A stretch of DNA of 24,847 bases from a virus, in IMG/VR virus record IMGVR_UViG_3300048583_000077, positions 1 to 24,847 of that record; one strand, given 5' to 3'. Positions 2,016-24,847 of this stretch are shown here, piece by piece. The notes below the pieces were generated by a model that saw nothing but the letters and a program-made list of their open reading frames with translations, had not been told where the DNA came from and searched no databases. A program made the position numbers and the translations under genes. Numbering within the stretch: the first letter of the stretch is position 1; every line of letters begins with the position of its first letter.

Positions 2016-2348
2016 CCACTCTACGTAAAAATAACTATCCTCAATCTTTCTCCTCGATGCTGTTTCAGTCAAATCAGTGATAAATCGAATACATACATCA
2101 TCAGTCGGAAATCCTCTAAGACCTTGTAATTTGATGACCCCATCTCGACTAATTTCGCCGAAACATTGGGTATCTGGATATTCCGTCATTATCAATATAG
2201 TTCTTAGAACTGGTATATCCTTACCAATAATGCACCCACTCTCCATGATATTTCGCAACTGTGTGAAGCTTATATTATCGAAAGAAGCCCACCCGTTGTT
2301 AAAATGGGTGGGCTTAAGATTTAAAATCGGGCAAATTTTACCAATCAT
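2013..2348 (-). CDS. Hypothetical protein (111 aa)
   Basis: Not recognised. The ATG at 2346-2348 overlaps the TGA of the deoxyribosyltransferase-like gene as ATGA, which supports the start. The protein is a small soluble one with mixed alpha/beta character: a possible helix at SFTQLRNIMESG (about 27-38), then strands PVLRTILIMTEYP and GEISRDGVIKLQG. Codons for residues about 12-21 form a perfect 10-bp GC-rich inverted repeat (2285-2294 with 2306-2315). This is unusual for this AT-rich DNA and could act on the mRNA. It is last in its unit. Confidence 0.7.
   Translation of the reverse strand: MIGKICPILNLKPTHFNNGWASFDNISFTQLRNIMESGCIIGKDIPVLRTILIMTEYPDTQCFGEISRDGVIKLQGLRGFPTDDVCIRFITDLTETASRRKIEDSYFYVEW
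2285..2315 (-). repeat. 10-bp perfect inverted repeat inside a coding region
   Basis: Arms AAGCCCACCC (2285-2294) and GGGTGGGCTT (2306-2315) surround an 11-base loop. It is far more GC-rich than its surroundings and lies 31-64 bases after the start codon at 2348. In the mRNA it would form a strong stem-loop. It could attenuate transcription, shield the 3' end of upstream genes or slow translation. Confidence 0.7.
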
Positions 2349-2854
2349 ACGCTATTCAATATTCTCTCGATTTCATCCAACCAAGCCTTTTTATCGTTAA
2401 AGCACTCGACTCCGTATCTATCGCAAACGATATCAACATTCCCTTTTCTCCAATATCCGTCAGGACAGCATACGATCATTTTTTGATCATACCCATCCGT
2501 ATTTGTAAATAATCCAAGTTCCAATAACGATATCGGAGACTTTGTTGCTGGGTCAAAATACATTAAAATCAAATTAGACACATGTAGCATGTCTAGTTCC
2601 CAATTTACTTGACCATAGAATTGTTGATTATCTTTGGTTTGTTCCCAAGAGGAATCCCAATCTGGTCTCCTAGGGTTAAAAAATAAAACCTTATCCGTAT
2701 AAGGTTTACCAATGGTCGAGTTTAGCAATTCGGTCTGCCAATCTTCAGCTAATCCCATTTCAATGGAACCACCCATAAAGACCTTAAATTTCTTAGAGTC
2801 GGATGGATGACTCCTCATAGGAGGAGTGATATAAGTAGATCCATGAACAATCAT
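2345..2854 (-). CDS. Nucleoside 2-deoxyribosyltransferase-like protein
   Basis: Likely a member of the Nuc_deoxyrib_tr family, which swaps bases on 2'-deoxynucleosides or cleaves their N-glycosidic bond. Counting from the ATG at 2854 (169 aa), the family signatures appear in order: FKVFMGGSIEMG (strand 1 and the GGSI loop), FFNPRRPDWD (phosphate/base-side NPRR), QVNWELDML and, near the middle, SLLELGLFT, whose Glu is the usual nucleophile position. The length suits the family. A TTG nine codons upstream (2879-2881) is an alternative start; an AACTTAG plus 14-base arrangement in front of it imitates the CACTAG promoters. The protein could modify nucleotide pools during phage DNA synthesis. The substrate cannot be read from the sequence. 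Confidence 0.8.
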   Translation of the reverse strand: MIVHGSTYITPPMRSHPSDSKKFKVFMGGSIEMGLAEDWQTELLNSTIGKPYTDKVLFFNPRRPDWDSSWEQTKDNQQFYGQVNWELDMLHVSNLILMYFDPATKSPISLLELGLFTNTDGYDQKMIVCCPDGYWRKGNVDIVCDRYGVECFNDKKAWLDEIERILNSV

Positions 2855-2881
2855 AAAAAGGGGTCCGGTTTTCAACTTCAA

Positions 2882-4203: not shown

Positions 4204-4866
4204 TCAAGTCGCTGAATCATGATGATCATACAATTTAACTGTTTTAGTTTCCATAACTTCTTCAATTTCATCAAATGACCAAACATTTTTTTTCCAATCC
4301 CATGAACAATCTAGGCATTTACCTAGAGGGAAATCCGGATTTCTGGTGTGATCATTGTTATGCGAATGGCCGTGAAGGTTATAGCTCGCACGGCCAATAT
4401 GATTCCAGTTATGGATCGGGAAGTGATTCATAATAATTCGCTTTTTACCAATTTGGATTTCTTGGTGATTTCCAAGAAATGTTACTTTCCCCATTGTAAT
4501 TGGATATACTTCAATATCATCTCGTCCAAACTGATTCATTATTTCTTGTCTATATAAACGAAAAGTATTTGAACAATGATTCCCCCAAAGCTTATAGATA
4601 TTATCACATTTTAACCCGGAGAGCCATTCTAAACATTGTTCATCAGACGAATTCAAAAACAAATCACCCATCACCCACAATATATCCTCTTTGCCGACCT
4701 TATCATTTATTGTATTTTGTATAATTTGAGCGGATTCTTTAGAACTGTTATACCCTCTAGATTTCCATATTGGGATCGGCCAATTGGGATCGTGATAAAT
4801 ATGCCAATCGCTCGTAAAAAAGTGTTTATCTTTATCGCTCCAAGGATATTTTAATAATTTATTCAT
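4204..4866 (-). CDS. Calcineurin-like metallophosphoesterase (220 aa)
   Basis: The metal-binding blocks of the calcineurin-like fold appear in order: D20-W-H22 in FFTSDWHIYH, G67-D68 in WVMGDLF, G95-N96-H97 in LWGNHC, H148 in MNHFP and H165-G-H167-S-H169 near the C-terminal third. The protein is cytosolic with no signal peptide. Phage members of this family hydrolyse phosphodiesters, cyclic nucleotides or 2',3'-cyclic RNA ends; the substrate is not decidable here. With the ligases and P-loop kinases in this window, RNA end processing is a reasonable guess. Its upstream neighbour is now the plus-strand LAGLIDADG gene, which separates it from the thioredoxin-like gene of the same unit. Confidence 0.9.
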   Translation of the reverse strand: MNKLLKYPWSDKDKHFFTSDWHIYHDPNWPIPIWKSRGYNSSKESAQIIQNTINDKVGKEDILWVMGDLFLNSSDEQCLEWLSGLKCDNIYKLWGNHCSNTFRLYRQEIMNQFGRDDIEVYPITMGKVTFLGNHQEIQIGKKRIIMNHFPIHNWNHIGRASYNLHGHSHNNDHTRNPDFPLGKCLDCSWDWKKNVWSFDEIEEVMETKTVKLYDHHDSAT

Positions 4867-4897: not shown

Positions 4898-5617
4898 ATG
4901 GATAAAATTAAAAATTACAAAGTTAATCATGATAAATTTATATCTCAAGTCGATTCAGAAATTAGTTATATTTTGGGGTATTTGTGGGCAGATGGGAGTA
5001 TATTTAAGAACCAAATCAATCTTGAACTATGTAGGGGTGATGTATTAGATATTTTTCCAATTTTTGAAAAGTCTGGGACTTGGAATTATTACGAGCGTCA
5101 AAGAATGACATCAGGAAAACCATTCGGCAAAATTCAAGCTAAATTAAACACTTCTAATCCAGAATTAGTGAAGTTTTTAATTTCTATGGATTATAAAAAT
5201 AAAGATATTGGTCCATATAAAATATTGGAACATATTGGACACACTTATCATGACGACTTTTGGCATGGTTTTTTTGATGGTGATGGATGCCTATATATAC
5301 AGAATAAAAAAGGAGGTTCCACCACTTTACAATTTTGGTCCACCATAGACCAAGATTGGACACCACTAGTGACTTACTTGGACAAGTTCAATTATCGAAT
5401 TTGGAAATATGTGAGAATTAAAAAGAATGGAAATATTCATAAATCTTCTTGTTTAGGTGTTAAAAATACTGTAAATATAAAATTATTTTTAGAAAATTTC
5501 TATAAAAATGAGCTTATCGGATTAAGCAGAAAATATGAAAAGTTTCAATTGTTGAGTTTCAATTTAAAGAACAGAAAAACATCATATCCAAAAACAGGAA
5601 CCAGATTTTATACCTGA
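4898..5617 (+). CDS. LAGLIDADG homing endonuclease (239 aa)
   Basis: Two LAGLIDADG helices are visible: ILGYLWADGS (about 25-34) and FWHGFFDGDG (about 121-130). Each carries the acidic residue needed for metal-dependent cleavage (D32; D127 or D129). The length and single-chain two-motif layout fit a monomeric homing enzyme making a 4-base 3' overhang cut. It lies on the plus strand between the minus-strand thioredoxin-like and metallophosphoesterase genes. It has its own CTAAATA promoter and overlaps the 3' end of the thioredoxin-like gene by 10 bases. Its AT content is higher than its neighbours, as expected for a mobile gene. Confidence 0.93.
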   Translation: MDKIKNYKVNHDKFISQVDSEISYILGYLWADGSIFKNQINLELCRGDVLDIFPIFEKSGTWNYYERQRMTSGKPFGKIQAKLNTSNPELVKFLISMDYKNKDIGPYKILEHIGHTYHDDFWHGFFDGDGCLYIQNKKGGSTTLQFWSTIDQDWTPLVTYLDKFNYRIWKYVRIKKNGNIHKSSCLGVKNTVNIKLFLENFYKNELIGLSRKYEKFQLLSFNLKNRKTSYPKTGTRFYT

Positions 5618-6290: not shown

Positions 6291-6315
6291 ATAAGTAGTA
6301 TACTCTAGTGTTTTA
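6291..6315 (-). promoter_or_regulatory. CACTAG-type promoter P5
   Basis: Minus-strand TAAAACACTAG (CACTAG at 6305-6310) is followed by AG, TATACT and, after 14 bases in all, the YqeY ATG. The TAA of the upstream gene comes just before it. Confidence 0.78.
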
Positions 6316-6909
6316 TTAGATACCAATGGTATATGCTTTACTTGCATCCAATGTTTTGGCATTCGGGTGGAGAATTTTGGCATCTTCCAAGAAGCTCTTG
6401 ATATCCCCACATGTATATTTCTTGATAGCAGATTGAATACGCTTAGTGGTCACATTACCCTTACCCTTTATAAAGTCCAAAATCTTAACTTGATCATTAT
6501 AATTCAAGTTATATGAGCTACTGGCTTGTGGGTTAGGTCTAGCACTAGTAGGGACTCCAAATGTTCCAGCAGGAATAGGGGTAGGTTTTTGAGGAATTGT
6601 CAACAATGGATTTGTTGGTGGTAAGTGCAATTTCGCTGCGGTCTTCTTGGTGAACAAACGATACGGAATATAAGTATTGGTGTTGTAATCAATATCATAT
6701 TCATCCAGAAATCCGTTCTCAAGAAGAGTCACAAAAGCTTTACGAACTTCGTTGTGCTCGATGTTATTGTCCTCATACTTTTCGATGCTATATTCACCGT
6801 CATTAACATCTTCCCTCAATTGGGTAGTGATGTTTGCGACAGAGAATGGTGTAGTATCAAAGTTCTTGATAGCTAGGAGGATTGCGATAGTTAGGTTAAT
6901 AGTTTTCAT
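6316..6909 (-). CDS. Putative winged-helix protein downstream of PARP (197 aa)
   Basis: No exact family recognised. The N-terminal 90 residues (TIAILLAIKNFDTTPFSVANITTQL... VRKAFVTLLENGFLDEYDI) look like a winged-helix fold: helix, DNA-type recognition helix, then a 'LLENGFL' turn before the wing. A Pro-rich linker of about 35 residues (PPTNPLLTIPQKPTPIPAG) leads to a second helical domain (DQVKILDFIKGKGNVTTKRIQSAI), also helix-turn-helix-like. It overlaps the PARP gene by ATGA and shares promoter P6. The two may act together, for example as PARP substrate or DNA-targeting partner; this is inference. Confidence 0.75.
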   Translation of the reverse strand: MKTINLTIAILLAIKNFDTTPFSVANITTQLREDVNDGEYSIEKYEDNNIEHNEVRKAFVTLLENGFLDEYDIDYNTNTYIPYRLFTKKTAAKLHLPPTNPLLTIPQKPTPIPAGTFGVPTSARPNPQASSSYNLNYNDQVKILDFIKGKGNVTTKRIQSAIKKYTCGDIKSFLEDAKILHPNAKTLDASKAYTIGI

Positions 6910-8153
6910 TTGATTTCGATTAGATATTTTAGTTTGATTTGGTTTGAGTTGTATACGATCAACTCATCGTTTTGGAGTCTTGTTTTTTCAGGTAAAGCCC
7001 AACATGAGTCATATCCTGCTGGAACTTTACTTAATCCATTACCACCAGTTGGATAATAGGCGTTACCCATGACAAAGTCACAGACAAACAACCAACCAGA
7101 ATCTCCCTTACCTTGTCCCCAGCGTCCTAGGCTATATCCTAGGCTCTTAGATGATGTCTTTGATCCATATACCCCATTACCGAACATTTTGCCAGCAATG
7201 GCAGCGGTAGAAGGTGGAGACACAGCCAATCCCGATTTAAGGATAGATAAGATATTTGATTGTCCTGATCCGTGCCAAACCTCTTGAATGTTGGCAAGCT
7301 TTGAATTGAAATTAGCATTGTAATCCAAAATGTCAATAGCATAAACATTAGCCACTTTCAAATTGGTGTAATAATGCATCGCTTTGTTGGTTTTAGTATA
7401 CCAATCAGAAATTTGTTTAATGATCTTGGAGTCTGTCACTAAACCCATTTCGAGGTTAAAGACCTTTTCAGCCGAAACCTTACCATCGCTATCTTTTGGT
7501 TTGAGAGCTAGTTCGACACTGTTCGCAAGGGCATCTAAAACATCAGATTCTTTCTTGACCGTTTCGATATCAGGAAAAATGTTTTCATAATACAGACCCG
7601 AACCCTTTGGTCTAGGAATAATCTTCAGATAATCATCGATTTTCTCATTGAAGTCATCCTTACCGTTCTTTTTGATATTTTTATGAAAGAAATCTAATAG
7701 GTTTCGAGCCTCGTCAATACCCTCTTTGGTGACGATACCTAGAGGAGTTTGAAATACACCATTATCAAAGCTAATACTGGTGGAGCTTGTGATTTTATGA
7801 ACATTGCTATCTGCAAGCCTCTTAACCAAAGGTTGGAGACTTTTATCAGAAAGTTGAATTTGTGAAAGTGCGATATCAGCAAGTGAAATATTGGCTCCTA
7901 TATGGGCAGTGGTCACTACCCCATCCATGAGAACTTTAGCGTGGGAATATCCCTTCTTTTCTTTTTCTCGAATTTTCTTTCTGAAAAAAGATTCACCAAC
8001 ACAACCAAAATCTTTAGATTGTGGATTTGTGGCCCCAACTACACCGAATCTGGAAACGACTCTCCCATCATCATGTAGTTCACCATCCCAGTATTTATAA
8101 CTGTGTTTTGCTAGGTCGGAAAAGACCAAACGCACTTTCTCTTTGATAGCCAT
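6906..8153 (-). CDS. WGR-domain poly(ADP-ribose) polymerase (PARP)
   Basis: A 415-aa protein with the full architecture of DNA-dependent PARPs. Residues 1-80 form a WGR-like domain, but the W-G-R signature reads RFGVVG (35-40). Residues about 90-215 resemble the helical regulatory domain, including FQTPLGIVTKEGIDEARNLL. The catalytic domain covers about 255-415. The H-Y-E triad is present: H294 in VWHGSG, Y329 in FGNGVYGS and E397 in LQNDELIVY. It transfers ADP-ribose from NAD+ to proteins or nucleic acid ends; the conserved Glu suggests chain elongation is possible. The ATG is 14 bases from CACTAG of P6. Targets could be host polymerase, DNA ends or defence proteins. Confidence 0.93.
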   Translation of the reverse strand: MAIKEKVRLVFSDLAKHSYKYWDGELHDDGRVVSRFGVVGATNPQSKDFGCVGESFFRKKIREKEKKGYSHAKVLMDGVVTTAHIGANISLADIALSQIQLSDKSLQPLVKRLADSNVHKITSSTSISFDNGVFQTPLGIVTKEGIDEARNLLDFFHKNIKKNGKDDFNEKIDDYLKIIPRPKGSGLYYENIFPDIETVKKESDVLDALANSVELALKPKDSDGKVSAEKVFNLEMGLVTDSKIIKQISDWYTKTNKAMHYYTNLKVANVYAIDILDYNANFNSKLANIQEVWHGSGQSNILSILKSGLAVSPPSTAAIAGKMFGNGVYGSKTSSKSLGYSLGRWGQGKGDSGWLFVCDFVMGNAYYPTGGNGLSKVPAGYDSCWALPEKTRLQNDELIVYNSNQIKLKYLIEIK

Positions 8154-8178
8154 GTAATGATGATAATCTAGTGTTTTA
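8154..8178 (-). promoter_or_regulatory. CACTAG-type promoter P6 (PARP unit)
   Basis: Minus-strand TAAAACACTAG (CACTAG at 8168-8173) is followed by AT, TATCAT and the PARP ATG at 14 bases. The TAA is the stop of the 8176-8571 gene. Confidence 0.78.
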
Positions 8179-8973: not shown

Positions 8974-9149
8974 AATCTGTCTCCTATAAATTGTTGAATG
9001 AAGTCTGAAACATCCAAAACCTCAACACTCTCTGTTGTCATACCTACTCTAGGGACTGTTACCCATTCGTGTATGATAAATTTCTCCACTAAAGCTATTG
9101 CTAGTTCAGTGGAGAAATCACCAATCTCTTTACCACCTTCAAACTTCAT
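8970..9149 (-). CDS. Small protein downstream of RNA ligase (59 aa)
   Basis: Not recognised. It reads MKFEGGKEIGDFSTELAIAL and continues through VEKFIIHEWVTVPRVGMTTE to a C-terminal VSDFIQQFIGDRL. A perfect GGAGGTGATC Shine-Dalgarno, formed by the last codons of the RNA ligase gene, precedes the ATG at 9147-9149. The frame overlaps the ligase stop by 11 bases and the next start by ATGA. Such tight coupling on both sides makes it a real gene despite its size. It may be an accessory subunit or simply an unrelated small phage protein. Confidence 0.75.
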   Translation of the reverse strand: MKFEGGKEIGDFSTELAIALVEKFIIHEWVTVPRVGMTTESVEVLDVSDFIQQFIGDRL

Positions 9150-10251
9150 CGATCACCTCCATCATACCTTGCTTTATAAGCTTGTCTGGAGCATCTTTGT
9201 TATCCAACAATAAAAATGCGAGAGAACGTCTCCAGTCAGTATATCGTTCAACAATTTCCAATGCTTGGTCCTTGCGGGTATATGAGTCACCTCTGATAGT
9301 TTCGATAAACTTTCCGACCACATCGATCTTGAACAGAGTCTTATTATAAGCATCGATAACGATCACGATATCGTCCTTGATCTTTTCAGCAAGTTCGAAA
9401 TCTACAGTGGTTTCGACATAAGTATAAAAATCCTGACAGGTAGTGAATCGGTCTGTTTCCAAGAACATATCAACAACATTTTCAATGGTTCTAACACCAG
9501 TGCAAATCTTGTGTAGTTCACAGTATTCAGAAGCCTTGATCTTCTTGAGTGTTTGACCATCTGGGGAGTAAAGAACTACACCTTCCTTACCGGACCAAGC
9601 ATCCACATCAAGAATACAATCATGGATCGAATTATACTCATATCGAGCAGGACGTTCAAACCCAAATTCCTCCCCAATGAGATCCAAATATTCTTGTGAA
9701 TAATAAGTGCAATCTTCGTTGAGAACAGCGCCAACCAAGATTAATTTTGGCTCATTTGATTCACGCAAAACAATGATATTGGTTGGAGTCACCCATTCGA
9801 ATAACCATGATACGCCCACTGCTTGGGTAAAATCCTTATTACCCTGTTCAAAAAACTTTGGATACTTCGACATCAACAAATCTATCTCATGACCATTAGC
9901 CATGCTTCTAGCATCCTTTGTTCCGCGAGTTCTGAGAATCCACTCATTCTTATAAACCGAAACGATCAATAAAGATCCATCCAGCTTATGACGAGCTTCG
10001 AACTTCCACTCATTGTTCCATGGTTGGAAATCAGGCTTTTCTGAGAAGTTTACAAACTTACCAAAACCTTGTGACACCACATAATTGTCAGATTGTCTAA
10101 CAATACATGAGCGAAAACGAGCATTAGAATCATCCCAATGCGTTCCCATTGTTGATGGTGTTATCAACCAACAATCATCCCCTCCTATGACACAAGGTTT
10201 GAAAATAAACTCTGGATTTTTGGAGTCTATAAATTTTGAAATATTACCCAT
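9139..10251 (-). CDS. T4 Rnl1-type RNA ligase (370 aa)
   Basis: An ATP-dependent RNA ligase of the T4 Rnl1 group, which seals 5'-phosphate to 3'-OH RNA ends. Nucleotidyltransferase motifs in order: motif I K89-L-D-G-S with the adenylated Lys, RTRGT (107-111), motif III FEWV (151-154), motif IV KEGVVLY (222-228) and motif V LKKIKASEY (235-243). The length is close to T4 Rnl1, and the remaining 130 residues correspond to its C-terminal specificity domain. The start ATG lies 29 bases from the divergent GIY-YIG gene, which separates it from promoter P7. The usual role is repairing tRNAs cut by host anticodon nucleases. Confidence 0.93.
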   Translation of the reverse strand: MGNISKFIDSKNPEFIFKPCVIGGDDCWLITPSTMGTHWDDSNARFRSCIVRQSDNYVVSQGFGKFVNFSEKPDFQPWNNEWKFEARHKLDGSLLIVSVYKNEWILRTRGTKDARSMANGHEIDLLMSKYPKFFEQGNKDFTQAVGVSWLFEWVTPTNIIVLRESNEPKLILVGAVLNEDCTYYSQEYLDLIGEEFGFERPARYEYNSIHDCILDVDAWSGKEGVVLYSPDGQTLKKIKASEYCELHKICTGVRTIENVVDMFLETDRFTTCQDFYTYVETTVDFELAEKIKDDIVIVIDAYNKTLFKIDVVGKFIETIRGDSYTRKDQALEIVERYTDWRRSLAFLLLDNKDAPDKLIKQGMMEVIDEV

Positions 10252-10280: not shown

Positions 10281-10919
10281 ATGAAAATGACTGATAAATT
10301 AGAAAATCTTGGCGGTGTATATATTATAACAAATAAACTAAATGGTAAAGTATATGTTGGCGAAACCGTAAATCTTAGAAAGAGGATTGTTCGATATTTG
10401 ACGGAGAAAACTCAAGTTATATCAAGGGCTATCGAAAAATATGGCGTAGAAAATTTTGATTTATATGTGGAATATCTTCCAGATTTTGATAAAGTGGCTC
10501 TTCTTAAGTTAGAAGAGCAATTAATAATTAGATTCAATTCCCTTGTTCCATACGGGTATAATGTATGCCAACAAGGCACTGATGGAACAGGGAGAACCCA
10601 TACACAAGAAACTAAAGATAAAATAGGTAAGGCACATAAAAATAAAATAGTCACCAAAGAAACAAGAGATAAGTTATCAGTAGCATTGAGGGGGAAAATT
10701 CCGACCCAAGATACCATTCATAAAAGGACAAAACATTTAAGTAAACCAGTTATTCAAATGGATAAAAACACCAATGACATCATCAAAGAATGGCCTTCTG
10801 CGATTGCTGCGACCAAAGAGTTGTCCAATGGTAAAAATAGAAGCGGAGACATTTGTAGGGCTATTAAAGGAATAAAAATGAAAAGTGCATTTGGGTTCAA
10901 ATGGAAATTTAAAGATTAA
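10281..10919 (+). CDS. GIY-YIG homing endonuclease with NUMOD repeats (212 aa)
   Basis: The N-terminal catalytic module has GGVYIITNK (11-19) and KVYVGET (23-29) as the GIY and YIG strands, Arg in LRKRI (about 32-36) and the metal-binding Glu in LEEQLIIRF (about 77-85). The DNA-binding part carries a NUMOD3-like RTHTQETKDKIGKAHKNK (105-122), repeated as KETRDKLSVALRGK, and a NUMOD1-like KPVIQMDKNTNDIIKEW (155-171) ending in the usual CRAIKG...GFKWKF. It resembles the seg and I-TevI type enzymes of T-even phages. It lies on the plus strand between RNA ligase and a small gene, overlapping the latter's end by 4 bases. Confidence 0.94.
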   Translation: MKMTDKLENLGGVYIITNKLNGKVYVGETVNLRKRIVRYLTEKTQVISRAIEKYGVENFDLYVEYLPDFDKVALLKLEEQLIIRFNSLVPYGYNVCQQGTDGTGRTHTQETKDKIGKAHKNKIVTKETRDKLSVALRGKIPTQDTIHKRTKHLSKPVIQMDKNTNDIIKEWPSAIAATKELSNGKNRSGDICRAIKGIKMKSAFGFKWKFKD

Positions 10920-12512: not shown

Positions 12513-12923
12513 TTATTGAAGTTTAAGAGTTTGACGAATAGTGTTTTCTTGTCTATCAAGAACTGCTTGTGGAACACCATGAACATTGATGTTATCATGT
12601 CTCTTTTCGAGAACGACAAAGAATACCAAAAGACCAGCCTTCTCAGCTTGGTCTGCATAATACTTCCATTCGCTTTCCTTGGTATTGGTGTTAGCAATGA
12701 CAATATTATTGATGATGGGATCTTTCAGAGCTTCGTCAAATTTGGCCCTACAAGCACCATGAGCAGCACCAAGCTTGGTTGCGTCGAAATTATAATTACC
12801 ATCCTTATCGGTGAAGTAATCATCTGCGCTACAAATAATTTTCGGGTCTGCTATCCTTTCGGAGAAGGTAGTTTTACCGGAACCAGAAGTGGCTCTAAGA
12901 ATTGTGAGAGTGCGTTGTGTCAT
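12513..12923 (-). CDS. P-loop kinase, AAA_33 / polynucleotide-kinase-like (136 aa)
   Basis: The N-terminus LTILRATSGSGKTTFSERIA (6-25) is a Walker A loop in the 'L-x-I-L-R-G-x-x-G-S-G-K-S-T' form used by AAA_33/PNK-type kinases; the first Gly is Ala here and K17-T18 are intact. CSADDYF (about 31-37) supplies the catalytic or metal Asp pair. AHGACRAKFDEAL and IVIANTNTKESEW (the 'NTN' sensor region) follow as in this family. It has no phosphatase domain. It could phosphorylate RNA/DNA 5' ends or nucleosides. Its ATG is 14 bases from CACTAG of P8, and it heads the unit. Confidence 0.88.
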   Translation of the reverse strand: MTQRTLTILRATSGSGKTTFSERIADPKIICSADDYFTDKDGNYNFDATKLGAAHGACRAKFDEALKDPIINNIVIANTNTKESEWKYYADQAEKAGLLVFFVVLEKRHDNINVHGVPQAVLDRQENTIRQTLKLQ

Positions 12924-12948
12924 AATTATATGATAATCTAGTGTTTTA
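12924..12948 (-). promoter_or_regulatory. CACTAG-type promoter P8
   Basis: Minus-strand TAAAACACTAG (CACTAG at 12938-12943) is followed by AT, TATCAT and the kinase ATG at 14 bases. The TAA is the stop of the 12946-13236 gene. Confidence 0.78.
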
Positions 12949-13236
12949 TAGATGGGTATTGTAAGCCTCTCTGATACCATTCAGAGTATCCTCTTTAGTC
13001 TTACCAATAATCGATATACCTAAAGGTTGGTAACACGAAATCCAATGAGATTCTTCACCAGATCCCATTTCCAAATATTGGATGTCATCAATTATCTCAT
13101 CAAACTCTGGTAAACCGTTTTTACCACGCTCCCTACTCTTGGAAACTTTCCATCCAATATTAGAGCATGTTGAACAATCATCAGCGGAATGTATTGAAAG
13201 AGAAGATTTTTCATTCTTTTTACCGTATGGTTTCAT
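12946..13236 (-). CDS. Hypothetical protein (96 aa)
   Basis: Not recognised. The N-terminus is basic and polar with CSTCSNIGW (about 22-30), a possible metal or thiol site. The rest is acidic, with an amphipathic helix (EFDEIIDDIQYLEMG), a SHWISCYQPLGISIIG strand pair and a last helix (TKEDTLNGIREAYN) that resembles the end of small sensor-like or HicB-like folds, though I see no clear homology. It overlaps the upstream gene by ATGA and is last in the P9 unit. Confidence 0.72.
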   Translation of the reverse strand: MKPYGKKNEKSSLSIHSADDCSTCSNIGWKVSKSRERGKNGLPEFDEIIDDIQYLEMGSGEESHWISCYQPLGISIIGKTKEDTLNGIREAYNTHL

Positions 13237-15900: not shown

Positions 15901-15916
15901 AAAATTGGTGCGCTCT

Positions 15917-15931
15917 GGACTAAATAATACC
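15917..15931 (+). promoter_or_regulatory. T4-late-like promoter of homing gene 4
   Basis: GGACTAAATA is followed by five bases and the ATG at 15932. TTGGTGCG lies a few bases upstream, as it does before the HNH gene. Confidence 0.6.
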
Positions 15932-16768
15932 ATGAAGTATCCTTACTATAAACTAAAATCTCAATTAGTCAACCCAACTGATCCCACATTCATATATTTC
16001 ATGGGTCTATTATGGGCCGATGGACATGTTGATAAAGGGAAAGTAACATTAAAAATTTCTTGGGATGATTTTATCGATATCAAAGAAAAAATAGAAACGT
16101 TATTAGAAAGACCGATAAAAGTTAAAAAAAGCAGACGTGAAAATTGGAAAGACCAATCAGATCTATCTATTTGTTCTATGGAGTTTGTAAAATTTTTAAA
16201 AGTGTTTGAATATGATACAAAATCCAAAAATGGCTCACCTGTAAAATTTTTCAATTTTATTTCTCCTGAATTATTGCCTTATTGGTGGATGGGGTATATT
16301 GATGGTGATGGATATGTTGGCAAAGATAAAATCACAATTACTAGCAACTATGCCCAAAATTGGGATTTCTGCGAATGTTTATCTAAACACAAAGTTTTCT
16401 ACAAAATTTATCAAAATACCAATAAAACGATGTATTCCAATATAACCATAGGAAATAAATCGTCCATAATGAGATTATGGGATTATATATATTCAAATAC
16501 TGAAAATATCGGATTTAGAAGAAAACGAGAAAAGGTAAAAGTAATTAAAGATGATATTATTATCAAAAAACAATCCAAATCTTCACCATATAAGAATATA
16601 CAATTATTGGGAAACATTTATAGGGTAGATATCACAAACAAAAAATTATCTAAAAAAATCACAAAGAAATTTAAAGTTTTAGAAGATGCTCTCCTATATA
16701 GAGATTTGATATATGTTGACATTTTACAAAGAACTCCCCCAGATGACTCATACGTAATTTTCTCATAA
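15932..16768 (+). CDS. LAGLIDADG homing endonuclease (278 aa)
   Basis: The two LAGLIDADG helices read YFMGLLWADGHV (22-33) and WWMGYIDGDGYV (118-129), with catalytic acids D30 and D124/D126. The C-terminal 60 residues (PYKNIQLLGNIYRVDITNKK... KFKVLEDALLYRDLIY) resemble an AP2-like DNA-binding domain often attached to phage homing enzymes. The ATG at 15932 is 5 bases from its TAAATA box. The gene lies between the 55-aa gene and the 188-aa gene, overlapping the former by 6 bases. Strong local AT bias (Lys/Asn/Ile-rich) separates it from its neighbours. Confidence 0.93.
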   Translation: MKYPYYKLKSQLVNPTDPTFIYFMGLLWADGHVDKGKVTLKISWDDFIDIKEKIETLLERPIKVKKSRRENWKDQSDLSICSMEFVKFLKVFEYDTKSKNGSPVKFFNFISPELLPYWWMGYIDGDGYVGKDKITITSNYAQNWDFCECLSKHKVFYKIYQNTNKTMYSNITIGNKSSIMRLWDYIYSNTENIGFRRKREKVKVIKDDIIIKKQSKSSPYKNIQLLGNIYRVDITNKKLSKKITKKFKVLEDALLYRDLIYVDILQRTPPDDSYVIFS

Positions 16769-16930
16769 GTCTGTCATGCATCGAATTCCTTTATATAAGC
16801 CAATTCCAATATCTTCATTGGCATCAGCCATAGCACCATCAATATCATCGAATAACAATTTCTTGTCGTCATCTGACAATTCTTCTAAAGGGATTTGTTT
16901 TTCGTAAATTTCTTCTAATCTATCAATCAT
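16763..16930 (-). CDS. Small acidic protein (55 aa)
   Basis: A short minus-strand frame reads MIDRLEEIYEKQIPLEELSD, then DDDKKLLFDDIDGAMADANE and IGIGLYKGIRCMTDL. It is strongly acidic and helical, with no family recognised. The ATG at 16928-16930 overlaps the SLOG gene's TGA as ATGA, and the stop overlaps the 3' end of the homing gene by 6 bases. Codon-level coherence and tight junctions support a real gene. It may have been separated from the 188-aa gene by the homing-gene insertion. Confidence 0.72.
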   Translation of the reverse strand: MIDRLEEIYEKQIPLEELSDDDKKLLFDDIDGAMADANEDIGIGLYKGIRCMTDL

Positions 16931-17490
16931 CGTAGTAAATTTAATTTATTGATTTCGTTCAAAACTTCAATCCCATTCATATGAAACATATTGAATACTG
17001 GGATGTCGTAATGGTTAGCTATACGTATAGCTTGACCAGTTCCACCAACAGCGGTTCCATCATGTGTCCAACAAACGACAAATTCAGAATCAGGTTCACC
17101 CAGACCTCTAACTTGTCGATAATTCCTAGACATGAAATTCATGAAATTAATATACTTAATTTCATGAATTTCAACCATCTTTTTATAATTTGGATGAAAC
17201 TTTTCAACGGAATCCCATGCTTCCGGGTCATCCTCTCCAAGAGAATAATGATTACCGACTAATCTATACTCATGATCTGGGTGCTCATCTCTGAATTCTT
17301 TTTCAAAATCTCTCCATGGCAACCAAATTTGTGCTCTGGTTGCACCACTCGCAAAAGCTTGATCTGATCCAGTAGCATTACCAGACCTAAGTGTATATCC
17401 CATATGACTCAATTCGATGGCCAATTTGGTCATTTCATATTGAGTCTTTGGAGTAATCTGACGACTACCGATTCCGGCGTAATACTTCAT
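16927..17490 (-). CDS. SLOG / DprA-like Rossmann protein (187 aa)
   Basis: The start MKYYAGIGSRQITPKTQYEM shows the GIGSR-x-T-P nucleotide-binding loop of SLOG proteins (the LOG/DprA/TIR-like Rossmann superfamily). YTLRSGNATGSDQAFASGA (about 32-50) matches the second phosphate-binding loop 'L-R-S-G-x-A-x-G-A-D-x-A-F', and GTGQAIRIA (about 153-161) is the third. Phage members are usually annotated 'DprA-like'; they are thought to bind nucleotides or nucleic acid, with no proven function. A 41-bp near-perfect palindrome lies within the codons for about residues 106-120 (IHEIKYINFMNFM). It overlaps both neighbours by ATGA. Confidence 0.9.
   Translation of the reverse strand: MKYYAGIGSRQITPKTQYEMTKLAIELSHMGYTLRSGNATGSDQAFASGATRAQIWLPWRDFEKEFRDEHPDHEYRLVGNHYSLGEDDPEAWDSVEKFHPNYKKMVEIHEIKYINFMNFMSRNYRQVRGLGEPDSEFVVCWTHDGTAVGGTGQAIRIANHYDIPVFNMFHMNGIEVLNEINKLNLLR
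17133..17173. repeat. 18-bp-arm perfect palindrome inside the SLOG gene
   Basis: Arms at 17133-17150 and 17156-17173 are perfectly complementary around a 5-base centre (TATAC). Each arm also contains the smaller palindrome TTCATGAA. It is AT-rich and sits in a less conserved stretch of the protein, so it could be a small inserted or expanded element, a protein-binding site or an mRNA hairpin. Confidence 0.85.
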
Positions 17491-17879
17491 TTAAATTCTA
17501 TTTCTTCTTTTTGAGTATCAAATCCAAAACTATTCTTTTTGAAATAATATCGCTTAACCATAGGTTCTTCTGCTTTTGCTCTGACGACATCTTTATAGAT
17601 GCTATAGTTGATCTTCTCGCCTTCGGATGTCAATAGAACCATTTCGTCTCCTATCATTTGTCGATGGACAATAGTTACAGGGACTTCTGCGGTCATGGTA
17701 AACTTTTCACTATCAGTAATAGTGGATAACACCATACATGTACTTAAATACATAGCCATTAAGGCAAATACTGGGACAATTTCCGGTTCACCGTTGTATG
17801 ATAAAGAACAACTAAACATCAGTCCACCAATAAAGATTATTGGGATTAATGATAAAAATATAATTTCGTAGTATGTCAT
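17487..17879 (-). CDS. Membrane protein with two N-terminal helices (130 aa)
   Basis: MTYYEIIFLSLIPIIFIGGLMF (1-22) and VPVFALMAMYLSTCMVLSTI (about 35-54) are two transmembrane helices. They are followed by a soluble beta-rich domain (KFTMTAEVPVTIVHRQMIGDEM..., about 59-130). The ATG at 17877-17879 overlaps the kinase TGA as ATGA, so an in-frame TTG upstream is not needed. The layout suggests an inner-membrane anchor with a cytosolic or periplasmic domain. T4-like phages carry many such uncharacterised membrane proteins. Function unknown. Confidence 0.8.
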   Translation of the reverse strand: MTYYEIIFLSLIPIIFIGGLMFSCSLSYNGEPEIVPVFALMAMYLSTCMVLSTITDSEKFTMTAEVPVTIVHRQMIGDEMVLLTSEGEKINYSIYKDVVRAKAEEPMVKRYYFKKNSFGFDTQKEEIEFK

Positions 17880-18262
17880 GGTTGCCAAATTTCTCTAACG
17901 TTAACTCCTTCTGGGATCGTGTAATTGAATACTTCAAATCTCTGTATCACTCTATCGTCATCCCTATGGGCCAGATTTCTCAAGCATTTTTCCTTATCAT
18001 TTTCAAAGAAAACCCAAGTAATCTCATAGTCCCACCCTTTGAATGCTGTCTCCGCTAGGCTTCTATACCTAGCATCACACATCCATGGATCAGAAATGAT
18101 GATATCTTTACCACTTTTCATCACCTCCACAATTTCTTTTTGATCACCCCTCATAGGATCATCAAAAAGATGAATCGTGTGGATATATCCCTGAATTTCT
18201 TTTGCAAGATGTGTTTTTCCTGAACCCGGAAGCCCAACAATTATGATTGCTTTTCTAGCCAT
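17876..18262 (-). CDS. P-loop kinase-like ATPase (128 aa)
   Basis: KAIIIVGLPGSGKTHLAKEI (4-23) is a textbook Walker A loop (G10-x-x-x-x-G15-K16-T17). IIISDPWMCDARYR (about 54-67) carries the Asp expected for a kinase of the AAA_33/adenylate-kinase-like group. TWVFFENDKEKCLRNLAHRDDDR (about 82-104) looks like the lid with its Arg residues. It is short and single-domain. The substrate is unknown: nucleotides, tRNA/RNA ends or a small molecule are possible. It overlaps its upstream neighbour by 22 bases. Confidence 0.87.
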   Translation of the reverse strand: MARKAIIIVGLPGSGKTHLAKEIQGYIHTIHLFDDPMRGDQKEIVEVMKSGKDIIISDPWMCDARYRSLAETAFKGWDYEITWVFFENDKEKCLRNLAHRDDDRVIQRFEVFNYTIPEGVNVREIWQP

Positions 18263-22191: not shown

Positions 22192-23055
22192 ATGTCTATT
22201 AGAAAGAAACGCTCTTGCGGGAAAATTAGTGATCATCAAATCAAAAATATTATTAAGCTTTATTTGGAAGGAAATACGACTAAAGAAGTCGCTATTATGG
22301 TTAATTTATCATATACCACTATAATAAAATGTTTGAATGATAATAATATTGATAAACGACCAAGAATTAGGAATTACACGTTAAACGAAAACTATTTCAG
22401 TAGTATTAACACAATCGATAAAGCTTATTTTCTAGGATTCCTATACGCAGATGGAAATATATCAAAGACTAAAGATGGTTATAGAGTTAAAATAGGATTA
22501 CAAGAAAGAGATTCTTATATTTTAGAGAGATTTTCAAATTATTGTGATTTTAGTGGTCCTATTCTTTTCAGAAAAGGCGCAACCGAAAAACATCAAAATC
22601 AAAAGCTTTTACAAATTTATAGTAAAGTGTTCTACGAAAATGCTTGTAAACAAGGATTGCATGATGCTAAGACATTTACTCTCACCTTTCCAAAAATCGA
22701 TCCAGAATTTATTAGCCATTTCATTAGAGGATATTTTGACGGTGACGGAAATGTTTTTATTAAAACATACGACTACCAAACATCAACATCAATCCATTTT
22801 TTAGGAACCTATGAAATGTGTCAATCAATTAAAAATCACCTTAAAACTACATTAAATTTACAATCAGATACTAAAATCGTTACAAAGAAAAACATTTTTA
22901 AATTTACCATCAATGATCGAAAAGACTTACTGAAGATTAAAAATTATTTATACACTGATTCAAAAGATTGTTTTCTTTCTCGAAAACTTGAAAAATTCCA
23001 AGAAGTGGAGAAATATATTCGAGAATACTATGAGTCACACCCCAACAGATATTAG
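22192..23055 (+). CDS. LAGLIDADG homing endonuclease with N-terminal HTH (287 aa)
   Basis: Residues 12-52 form a helix-turn-helix (IKLYLEGNTTKEVAIMVNLS, then YTTIIKCLND), probably extra DNA recognition. The two LAGLIDADG helices are AYFLGFLYADGN (78-89) and FIRGYFDGDGNV (177-188), with acids D87 and D183/D185. The length and layout fit a monomeric enzyme. It sits on the plus strand between the PrimPol-like gene and a Pth2-fold gene, overlapping the latter's stop by 4 bases. The TTAAATA promoter is its own. It is more AT-rich and Lys/Asn-rich than its neighbours, as expected of mobile cargo. Confidence 0.93.
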   Translation: MSIRKKRSCGKISDHQIKNIIKLYLEGNTTKEVAIMVNLSYTTIIKCLNDNNIDKRPRIRNYTLNENYFSSINTIDKAYFLGFLYADGNISKTKDGYRVKIGLQERDSYILERFSNYCDFSGPILFRKGATEKHQNQKLLQIYSKVFYENACKQGLHDAKTFTLTFPKIDPEFISHFIRGYFDGDGNVFIKTYDYQTSTSIHFLGTYEMCQSIKNHLKTTLNLQSDTKIVTKKNIFKFTINDRKDLLKIKNYLYTDSKDCFLSRKLEKFQEVEKYIREYYESHPNRY

Positions 23056-23459: not shown

Positions 23460-23484
23460 GGGTTGATTGTATCCTAGTGTTTTA
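23460..23484 (-). promoter_or_regulatory. CACTAG-type promoter P12
   Basis: Minus-strand TAAAACACTAG (CACTAG at 23474-23479) is followed by GA, TACAAT and the ATG at 14 bases. It follows the TAA of the 52-aa membrane protein gene directly. Confidence 0.77.
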
Positions 23485-24040: not shown

Positions 24041-24847
24041 TTAACTTTCTTCCTCCATGTCTTCTTCACCAGTATCTCTAGCAGAGGACTCTCCGATGAT
24101 AAATTTAGGAGATTTGAACTTATACACTGGCTTGCCTTCTCTAGTGTTGTTCTTGAGAACAACACCTTCGTTGATTACACCAGTTGTGCAAATTTCACAC
24201 TTCTTATCAAGATATTTCGCCTTTAGAGCTTCCAGATAATTGGAACCCCAATTTTCATCAAGAGGAATATCAGGAAACAAATCCTGTGCTAGACCTTCAT
24301 AATAAACTGGAACAGTTTGCAATCCAAGTTTAAAAGCAATTCCGCTAATAGTATTAAAATCAAATTCTACGACAGTTCCAAAACTATCAGTTGTGGTTGC
24401 GCGATAAAGTCTAAACTCGGATTCTCCAAGAGGACATCCATAATCATATCCTTTACCGCCCATACTTTGAATACATTTACCCGGAGAAGCATAGCCTACG
24501 ATTTCACCAAACAAGGTGATGCCTTCAGGAATTTGACCAGACAATTCTTTCATATGTCTACCCCAAACGTCATCAGTAAATTTCCCATCGCGACGATTCT
24601 TAAGAACACTTCTACTAGAATAAACTTCAACATATTCGGTCTCTGGATATTTCTTACCGAAAAGACCTAGTAGACTTTCTGTTAGAGTTTTATTTCTCTT
24701 GCAGAGAATATTACCAAAGATAGCACTGGTTCCATGCATCTTAGAAGAGATAGTAATGTGGTCATTTGGATTAAGCACCCAAATATTTTTACCAAGGTGT
24801 TCAGTCTTGTAGTGGAACTTAAATTGTCCTTCTATAATACGTGCCTT
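24041..24847 (-). CDS. Rnl2-like RNA ligase, 5' end cut by the window edge
   Basis: The frame stays open to the right edge (first visible residues KARIIEGQFKFHYKTEHLG), so the true start lies outside. At least 268 residues are present. Ligase motifs: motif I KMHGTSA with the nucleophilic Lys, YSSRS (motif Ia), LFGEIVGY (motif III), INEGVVLKN (motif IV) and YKFKSPKF (motif V). This set matches the Rnl2-like nucleotidyltransferases found in large phages and differs from the Rnl1 at 9139. An insertion with CEIC (near the three-quarter point) and an acidic tail (DTGEEDMEEES) follow the core. The probable role is sealing nicks in RNA duplexes or repairing tRNA. Confidence 0.88.
   Translation of the reverse strand, partial: KARIIEGQFKFHYKTEHLGKNIWVLNPNDHITISSKMHGTSAIFGNILCKRNKTLTESLLGLFGKKYPETEYVEVYSSRSVLKNRRDGKFTDDVWGRHMKELSGQIPEGITLFGEIVGYASPGKCIQSMGGKGYDYGCPLGESEFRLYRATTTDSFGTVVEFDFNTISGIAFKLGLQTVPVYYEGLAQDLFPDIPLDENWGSNYLEALKAKYLDKKCEICTTGVINEGVVLKNNTREGKPVYKFKSPKFIIGESSARDTGEEDMEEES

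Follow-up and report, generated by a model that had tools for sequence, protein, structure and literature searches.

What does a phage do with a PARP whose WGR domain has lost its arginine, and with the small gene that is coupled to it? Phage PARPs have been surveyed since 2005, and PARP is among the most frequent viral ADP-ribosyltransferase (ART) families (PMC9503650), with no description of a partner, trigger or substrate found in the literature searched. Here we analyse such a PARP in a viral stretch of 24,847 nucleotides, hereafter the window, together with its relatives, its partner gene and its genomic surroundings.

The PARP and its relatives

The product of 8153-6906 is a WGR-HD-ART PARP (Table 1). 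The preliminary description, made from the letters of the window, had placed the gene at 6906-8153 and had read from it WGR, helical regulatory (HD) and H-Y-E catalytic domains; the coordinates are correct, with the gene on the minus strand, and the architecture is upheld by Pfam, by a collinear profile and by a full-length superposition on PARP1. Pfam identifies the catalytic domain (PF00644, E 2.6e-25, aa 245-415, 89.5 bits versus a cut-off of 26.7) as well as, both slightly under cut-off, PARP_reg (E 8.4e-5, aa 104-211) and WGR (E 3.8e-4, aa 6-72), which gives the canonical order WGR, HD, ART. A profile of 18 relatives is collinear with human PARP1 (DNA-break complex) and PARP2 across WGR, HD and ART alike (E 4e-47 to 6e-47). 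The AlphaFold2 model, built from the same 18 diverse sequences since nine close sequences gave a pLDDT of 43, has pLDDT 81.8 and pTM 0.67. Its best Foldseek match is the PARP1-DNA complex 4dqy (E 4e-25), VIA-align superposes its residues 1-415 on PARP1 543-1006 (Z 26.2, rmsd 3.9 A, 367 residues), and PARP2 is the next-best structural match (Z 24.9). The structure alignment begins at residue 1, so that the WGR fold is present, and the HD between WGR and ART is recovered by PARP_reg as well as by the profile and structure alignments.

Residues H294, Y329 and E397 are invariant across the family alignments and pair with H862, Y896 and E988 of PARP1, which we take to be the PARP1 numbers of the H-Y-E triad. 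They had been proposed to share one NAD pocket; the predicted structure agrees with this at the level of fold, and the alignment to PARP1 would place the three residues as in the pocket of that enzyme. We predict that the window PARP is probably active.

Table 1. Features of the window around the PARP gene
Feature	Position	Strand	Basis or remark
PARP gene, 415 aa	6906..8153	minus (ORF 8153 down to 6906)	WGR-HD-ART
WGR domain, aa 1-75	7929..8153	minus	Pfam WGR; profile alignment to PARP1/2; clade comparison
W-G-R triad, F36-G37-V38	V38 codon 8040-8042	minus	
Helical regulatory domain (HD), ~aa 101-235	7449..7853	minus	PARP_reg; model helices versus PARP1 HD
ADP-ribosyltransferase (ART) domain, ~aa 236-415	6909..7448	minus	Pfam PARP; invariant residues
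H294; Y329; E397	7272-7274; 7167-7169; 6963-6965	minus	ART domain
Start-proximal element TAAAACACTAGATTAT	8163..8178	minus	9 nt before PARP ATG
Next element copy, before YqeY	6300..6315	minus	Recurring motif
Partner gene, 197 aa, two predicted winged-helix domains and Pro-rich linker	6316..6909	minus	ATGA overlap with PARP
YqeY-like gene, 148 aa	5844..6290	minus	Pfam YqeY E 2e-40; start set by element
Phosphoesterase-like gene, downstream of PARP and conserved within the window clade	4204..4866	minus	phrog_547 E 4e-34; synteny
T4 Rnl1-type RNA ligase, upstream of PARP	9139..10251	minus	Pfam E 1.6e-10; synteny

Human PARP1 and PARP2, members of clade 1, have the domain order, fold and H-Y-E triad in common with the window PARP at 20-25% identity, but the latter lacks the WGR arginine and an insertion of ~25 residues before the catalytic Glu of PARP1. 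It also differs at the HGS-R and Y-F positions of PARP1, where the Arg865 position is Gly or Ser and the Phe897 position is Gly throughout the window clade and in several near relatives. The T4 proteins Alt, ModA and ModB are phage ADP-ribosyltransferases like the window PARP and are not known to contain WGR or HD. Their active site is of the R-S-E type (PMC9503650), which is absent from the window PARP with its H-Y-E site. A PARP catalytic domain is also found in phages Aeh1, pf16 and Cellulophaga phi17:2 and phi4:1, of which Aeh1 and phi4:1 were described earlier (PMC1266365, PMC4245714), but these matches are limited to the catalytic domain or weak elsewhere, and in Aeh1, pf16 and Lysinibacillus the domain forms part of a large protein.

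Relatives that span the full length were identified in phages XacN1, RAS14 and CM1 and in three Klebsiella phages. The depositors annotated the XacN1 and FBKp34 proteins as PARP, that of FBKp34 with all three domains, and the XacN1 protein (BBA65562.1) is named in PMC7824862. The suggestion that a WGR-HD-ART protein is unusual for a phage hence finds no support, given these and other annotations (PMC7824862, PMC9503650). The full-length proteins of XacN1 (Xanthomonas), RAS14 (Stenotrophomonas) and the Klebsiella phages FBKp34, KP13-16 and 05F01 show 30-33% identity with the window PARP; unlike it, they keep the WGR arginine (YGR or FGR) and come without the partner gene.

Bacterial PARPs have the same architecture (PMC5966428), among them CdPARP and HaPARP from the literature. 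Those that we compared, from Pseudomonas, Variovorax and Vibrio megaplasmids and from Leifsonia and Agromyces, show 29-35% identity and, unlike the window PARP, keep Gly-Arg in all cases examined. The bacterial relatives reside largely on plasmids of 0.3-1.2 Mb, and those closely related to the phage PARPs (L081-L087 and H33-H52) are found on megaplasmids. PARP is rare in the sampled bacterial genomes, with 0/398 from the phylum of L032 and 1/396 from that of L030, the single case being the centre genome itself. Two Pseudomonas megaplasmids have a different gene of ~200 aa directly before PARP, and in FeN3W a gene for RNA 2'-phosphotransferase (KptA) follows it. The gene class is therefore already known; what look new are the fixed loss of the WGR arginine and the obligate partner.

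A clade-fixed change in the WGR signature

The preliminary description had correctly read the WGR signature as changed to RFGVVG. The triad [FY]-G-V occurs in the window and in seven other non-redundant contigs that are 70-76% identical, i.e. in 8/8 members of the window clade, whereas the arginine is kept in every relative examined outside that clade, be it from phage, plasmid or actinobacterium. The nearest sister, L040, retains it (FGRVG) at 50.6% identity. Since the GVV group forms one clade in the tree (support 100/100) with L040 as its sister (100/98), a single derived Arg-to-Val change explains the pattern most simply. The window clade retains an aromatic residue at the first position of the triad; that position was already known to vary in bacterial PARPs (PMC5966428).

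Val38 is encoded by GTA, GTT, GTG and GTC, all four codons, across the clade, whose synonymous sites approach saturation (pS 0.74-0.77), from which we conclude that the valine is held by selection. Omega, approximate as it derives only from pairs with finite dS, is ~0.12 for the WGR domain and ~0.09 for the whole PARP gene; because of this strong purifying selection the domain is considered altered rather than decayed. In place of the W-G-R signature of clade 1 PARPs the window has F-G-V, and we therefore class the protein as a WGR-PARP variant, apart from the DNA-break-activated PARPs of clade 1.

What the lost arginine may do is suggested by the eukaryotic enzymes. Its equivalent in PARP1 takes part in inter-domain contacts, and PARP1 with the patient mutation R591C still arrives at damage sites but comes off them quickly, without being trapped (PMC5945626). 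In PARP2, R140 of the WGR triad contacts a second nucleosome (PMC8150716). Given the inter-domain contacts in PARP1, gating could differ or vanish in the window clade, and we infer that the loss likely changed coupling or partner choice rather than plainly abolishing nucleic-acid binding. The preliminary description had allowed that activation by DNA ends may be lost or altered; the arginine is gone, but the aromatic residue is retained and the domain stays under purifying selection. A clade-fixed Arg-to-Val variant appears to be undescribed so far.

The partner gene and the two-gene unit

The partner start overlaps the PARP stop by 4 nt (ATGA), in agreement with the earlier proposal that PARP is coupled to a possible winged-helix gene. 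In sequence pattern the partner consists of two winged-helix segments joined by a Pro/Thr-rich linker, and its weak database matches are mostly of winged-helix types (Z-alpha, HTH_24, MarR, TFIIE-beta). Given these weak matches and the pattern, the winged-helix fold is a prediction, and the partner probably binds nucleic acid. Searches of Pfam, PDB, NCBIfam and PADLOC gave no significant match, and tblastn gave none among 50,697 phage records. For the PARP itself PADLOC returned only a marginal Cas5b match (E 0.008), and for the window partner none. One relative (L045) gave a REase_II match in PADLOC, which falls in its low-complexity linker repeat.

The partner is obligately linked to PARP in its clade. 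In an all-against-all BLAST comparison of neighbouring genes it is the most widely shared PARP neighbour (15/31 loci), including the distant loci L021, L034, L035, L036 and L045 that otherwise share little with the window. When 2.9 million viral contigs were scanned blindly, with the partner alignment as the sole query, 13 loci came up, of which 13/13 contain PARP; three of these contigs, identical over the locus, had escaped the PARP scans. Whole-record profile searches further located the partner 0.4 kb downstream of PARP in L051 (the twin of L044), 1.9 kb downstream in L037 and ~9 kb upstream in L040 and L046. In total it is present in 17/17 phages of the wider PARP clade, as defined from the tree, versus 0/11 PARP phage records outside. 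A gene downstream of PARP in L047 is weakly similar (E 0.001); judged by eye, the similarity lies in its N-terminal segment. Neither the PARP neighbours inspected on two megaplasmids nor the Leifsonia genome include the partner. No published description of the pair was found in the literature searched, an incomplete set.

The two ORFs overlap or nearly overlap in several loci; in L002, L017 and L020 they are 0.3-0.9 kb apart, and a separate copy of a start element precedes the partner. This element, TAAAACACTAGANTATNNT, recurs in the window in 11 coding-strand copies at <=2 mismatches versus 0.15 expected, with minus-strand 5' ends at 23484, 20329, 14115, 12948, 11144, 8178, 6315, 3643, 2015, 1273 and 125. 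Nine of the 11 copies lie exactly 9 nt before an ATG, including those of PARP (8178) and YqeY (6315). Because the partner stop at 6316 abuts the next element, PARP and partner form one closed two-gene unit. Close relatives have an own version of the element, TTAATTAAAACCGAANTAYAAT, just before the ATG; concerted own versions were seen in L002, L003, L004, L016, L017, L020 and L043, and the element also occurs on contigs L098-L100 and L102.

PARP had been thought to have its own promoter. A sigma-70 scan of the window lends this no support: it found 22 versus 16.9 +- 4.5 expected, i.e. chance level, with none just upstream of PARP on the minus strand. The recurring phage-specific element, however, lies directly before the ATG. 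Its -10-like TATNNT, 6 nt before the ATG, would suggest leaderless transcripts, and the element is possibly a phage-specific leaderless promoter or, alternatively, a translational signal.

Neighbouring genes and possible functions

A gene for an Rnl1-type RNA ligase is conserved upstream of PARP in every window-clade locus, a synteny almost wholly limited to closely related phages; a query with the RNA ligase returned no viral loci. YqeY-like relatives measure 146-149 aa. The window is rich in genes for nucleic-acid repair, with an Rnl2-like second RNA ligase (24041-24778), two polynucleotide-kinase-like genes or fragments (12513-12980, 17876-18262) and a DprA-like protein (16927-17490). A nucleoside 2-deoxyribosyltransferase-like gene (2345-2881, minus strand, Pfam E 1e-29) places another enzyme of N-glycosidic bonds near the PARP unit. 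Three members of the phrog_4645 endonuclease family (4898-5617, 15905-16768, 22192-23055) and HNH and GIY-YIG homing-endonuclease-like genes (742-1266, 10281-10919) are all on the plus strand, against the minus-strand direction of the genes around them; in L020, related copies of the homing-endonuclease-like kind adjoin PARP.

Genes for NAD+ salvage and for the probable removal of ADP-ribose accompany phage PARPs elsewhere. A NadV-type gene is present in 20/23 PARP-phage records (17/20 with duplicates merged); the published background, which served as comparison, is 22% of medium and 33% of jumbo phages (PMC9503650). The excess persists with one count per PARP clade (11 to 12/13, binomial p 2e-4 or less), where the clade groupings are our own choice and shared genome ancestry is allowed for only roughly. 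L061 has within 6.5 kb (L061:80-6558), in this order, NadV, PNKP, Prs, three small genes, PARP and partner, a cluster that unites NAD+ salvage, end repair and ADP-ribosylation. Three window-clade records carry a divergent macrodomain gene 12-15 kb upstream, on the same strand; in the Klebsiella phages and L040 such a gene precedes PARP by a few genes, and LR756511 has an ADP-ribosylglycohydrolase (ARG) 4-5 kb from PARP. No macrodomain was found in the window, itself a 24.8 kb fragment. The divergent phage family, often upstream of phage PARPs (L040:3007-3516, L006:3064-3579, L074-L078), is mostly missed by the Pfam Macro model: in a 206 kb relative neither that model nor the ARG model of Pfam gave a match, but the phage macrodomain query did.

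By analogy, the PARP is most likely a nucleic-acid-gated ADP-ribosyltransferase that would be aided by its partner. Tentatively, with a probability of roughly 0.42, we favour a gated PARP and a nucleic-acid-binding partner acting in a phage response to nucleic-acid damage or attack. Reasons for this are the PARP1 fold and triad, the purifying selection on WGR and the obligate linkage of the partner; neighbours that act on nucleic-acid ends, namely Rnl1, the polynucleotide-kinase-like genes and the second RNA ligase; NadV-PNKP-Prs upstream of PARP and partner in L061, and KptA beside a megaplasmid PARP; and the NadV excess in PARP phages together with macrodomain homologues in window-clade records. 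PARP and partner would be made as one two-gene unit and, by analogy with PARP1-3, the HD would keep the NAD+ site closed until the WGR domain, probably jointly with the partner or by way of it, binds an end or structure of DNA or RNA. NAD+ would then be split and ADP-ribose placed, as mono units or short chains, on candidate targets: the enzyme itself, its partner, bound proteins or the ends of nucleic acids. This would belong to the response to damage or attack. NAD+ would be resupplied by the NadV-type salvage of the phage and the mark probably removed by its macrodomain protein. A bolder version, which we consider doubtful, is that the partner took over nucleic-acid sensing or substrate direction for the WGR-altered PARP, the pair being a counterpart of PARP1-HPF1 by function and not by descent, with NAD+ supplied by the salvage genes of the phage and a phage macrodomain undoing the modification.

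Could the PARP instead modify host RNA polymerase or translation factors, as Alt, ModA and ModB do in T4, with the partner targeting or regulating it? We hold this to be somewhat unlikely, since the PARP keeps HD and WGR, modules not known from T4-type ARTs, and is not beside recognisable head or packaging genes within the window. The translation-related YqeY-like gene, located within two or three genes after PARP in most window-clade loci and also near PARP in the Klebsiella phages, speaks for such a host takeover, which has been proposed for phage PARPs (PMC7824862) and for viral ARTs generally (PMC9503650).

The obligate linkage and the ORFs that overlap or nearly so in several loci would also fit superinfection exclusion or a toxin-antitoxin pair, with PARP as NAD+-consuming effector and the winged-helix gene as antitoxin or autorepressor, and ART-ARG pairs exist in other phages (PMC9503650). 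We regard this as improbable: PADLOC has no substantial match for PARP or partner, three window-clade phages separate the two genes by the gap and own start element described above, and these genomes also encode NAD+ salvage, which speaks against a deliberate exhaustion of NAD+. About equally improbable is that PARP ADP-ribosylates RNA or DNA ends and so protects them or marks them for processing by the ligase and kinase of the phage. Nucleic acids are reported as ADP-ribosylation substrates (PMC8385414), and Rnl1 in all window-clade loci, PNKP in the L061 cluster and KptA next to a megaplasmid PARP would suit such a role, but Rnl1 does not adjoin PARP in the majority of the more distantly related PARP phages. 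That PARP is an inactive relic or scaffold, as the lost WGR arginine and the changed Phe897 and Arg865 positions might indicate, is rejected as highly improbable on account of the invariant H-Y-E triad and the omega of the gene.

For the study of phage PARPs, this PARP with its partner offers two concrete handles, the obligate partner and the clade-fixed Arg-to-Val change, which lend themselves to co-expression and to a search for the trigger. As a natural variant of the WGR domain, the window clade gives a handle on the contacts by which DNA binding is coupled to catalysis, an issue that also bears on human PARP1 and the trapping by its inhibitors.
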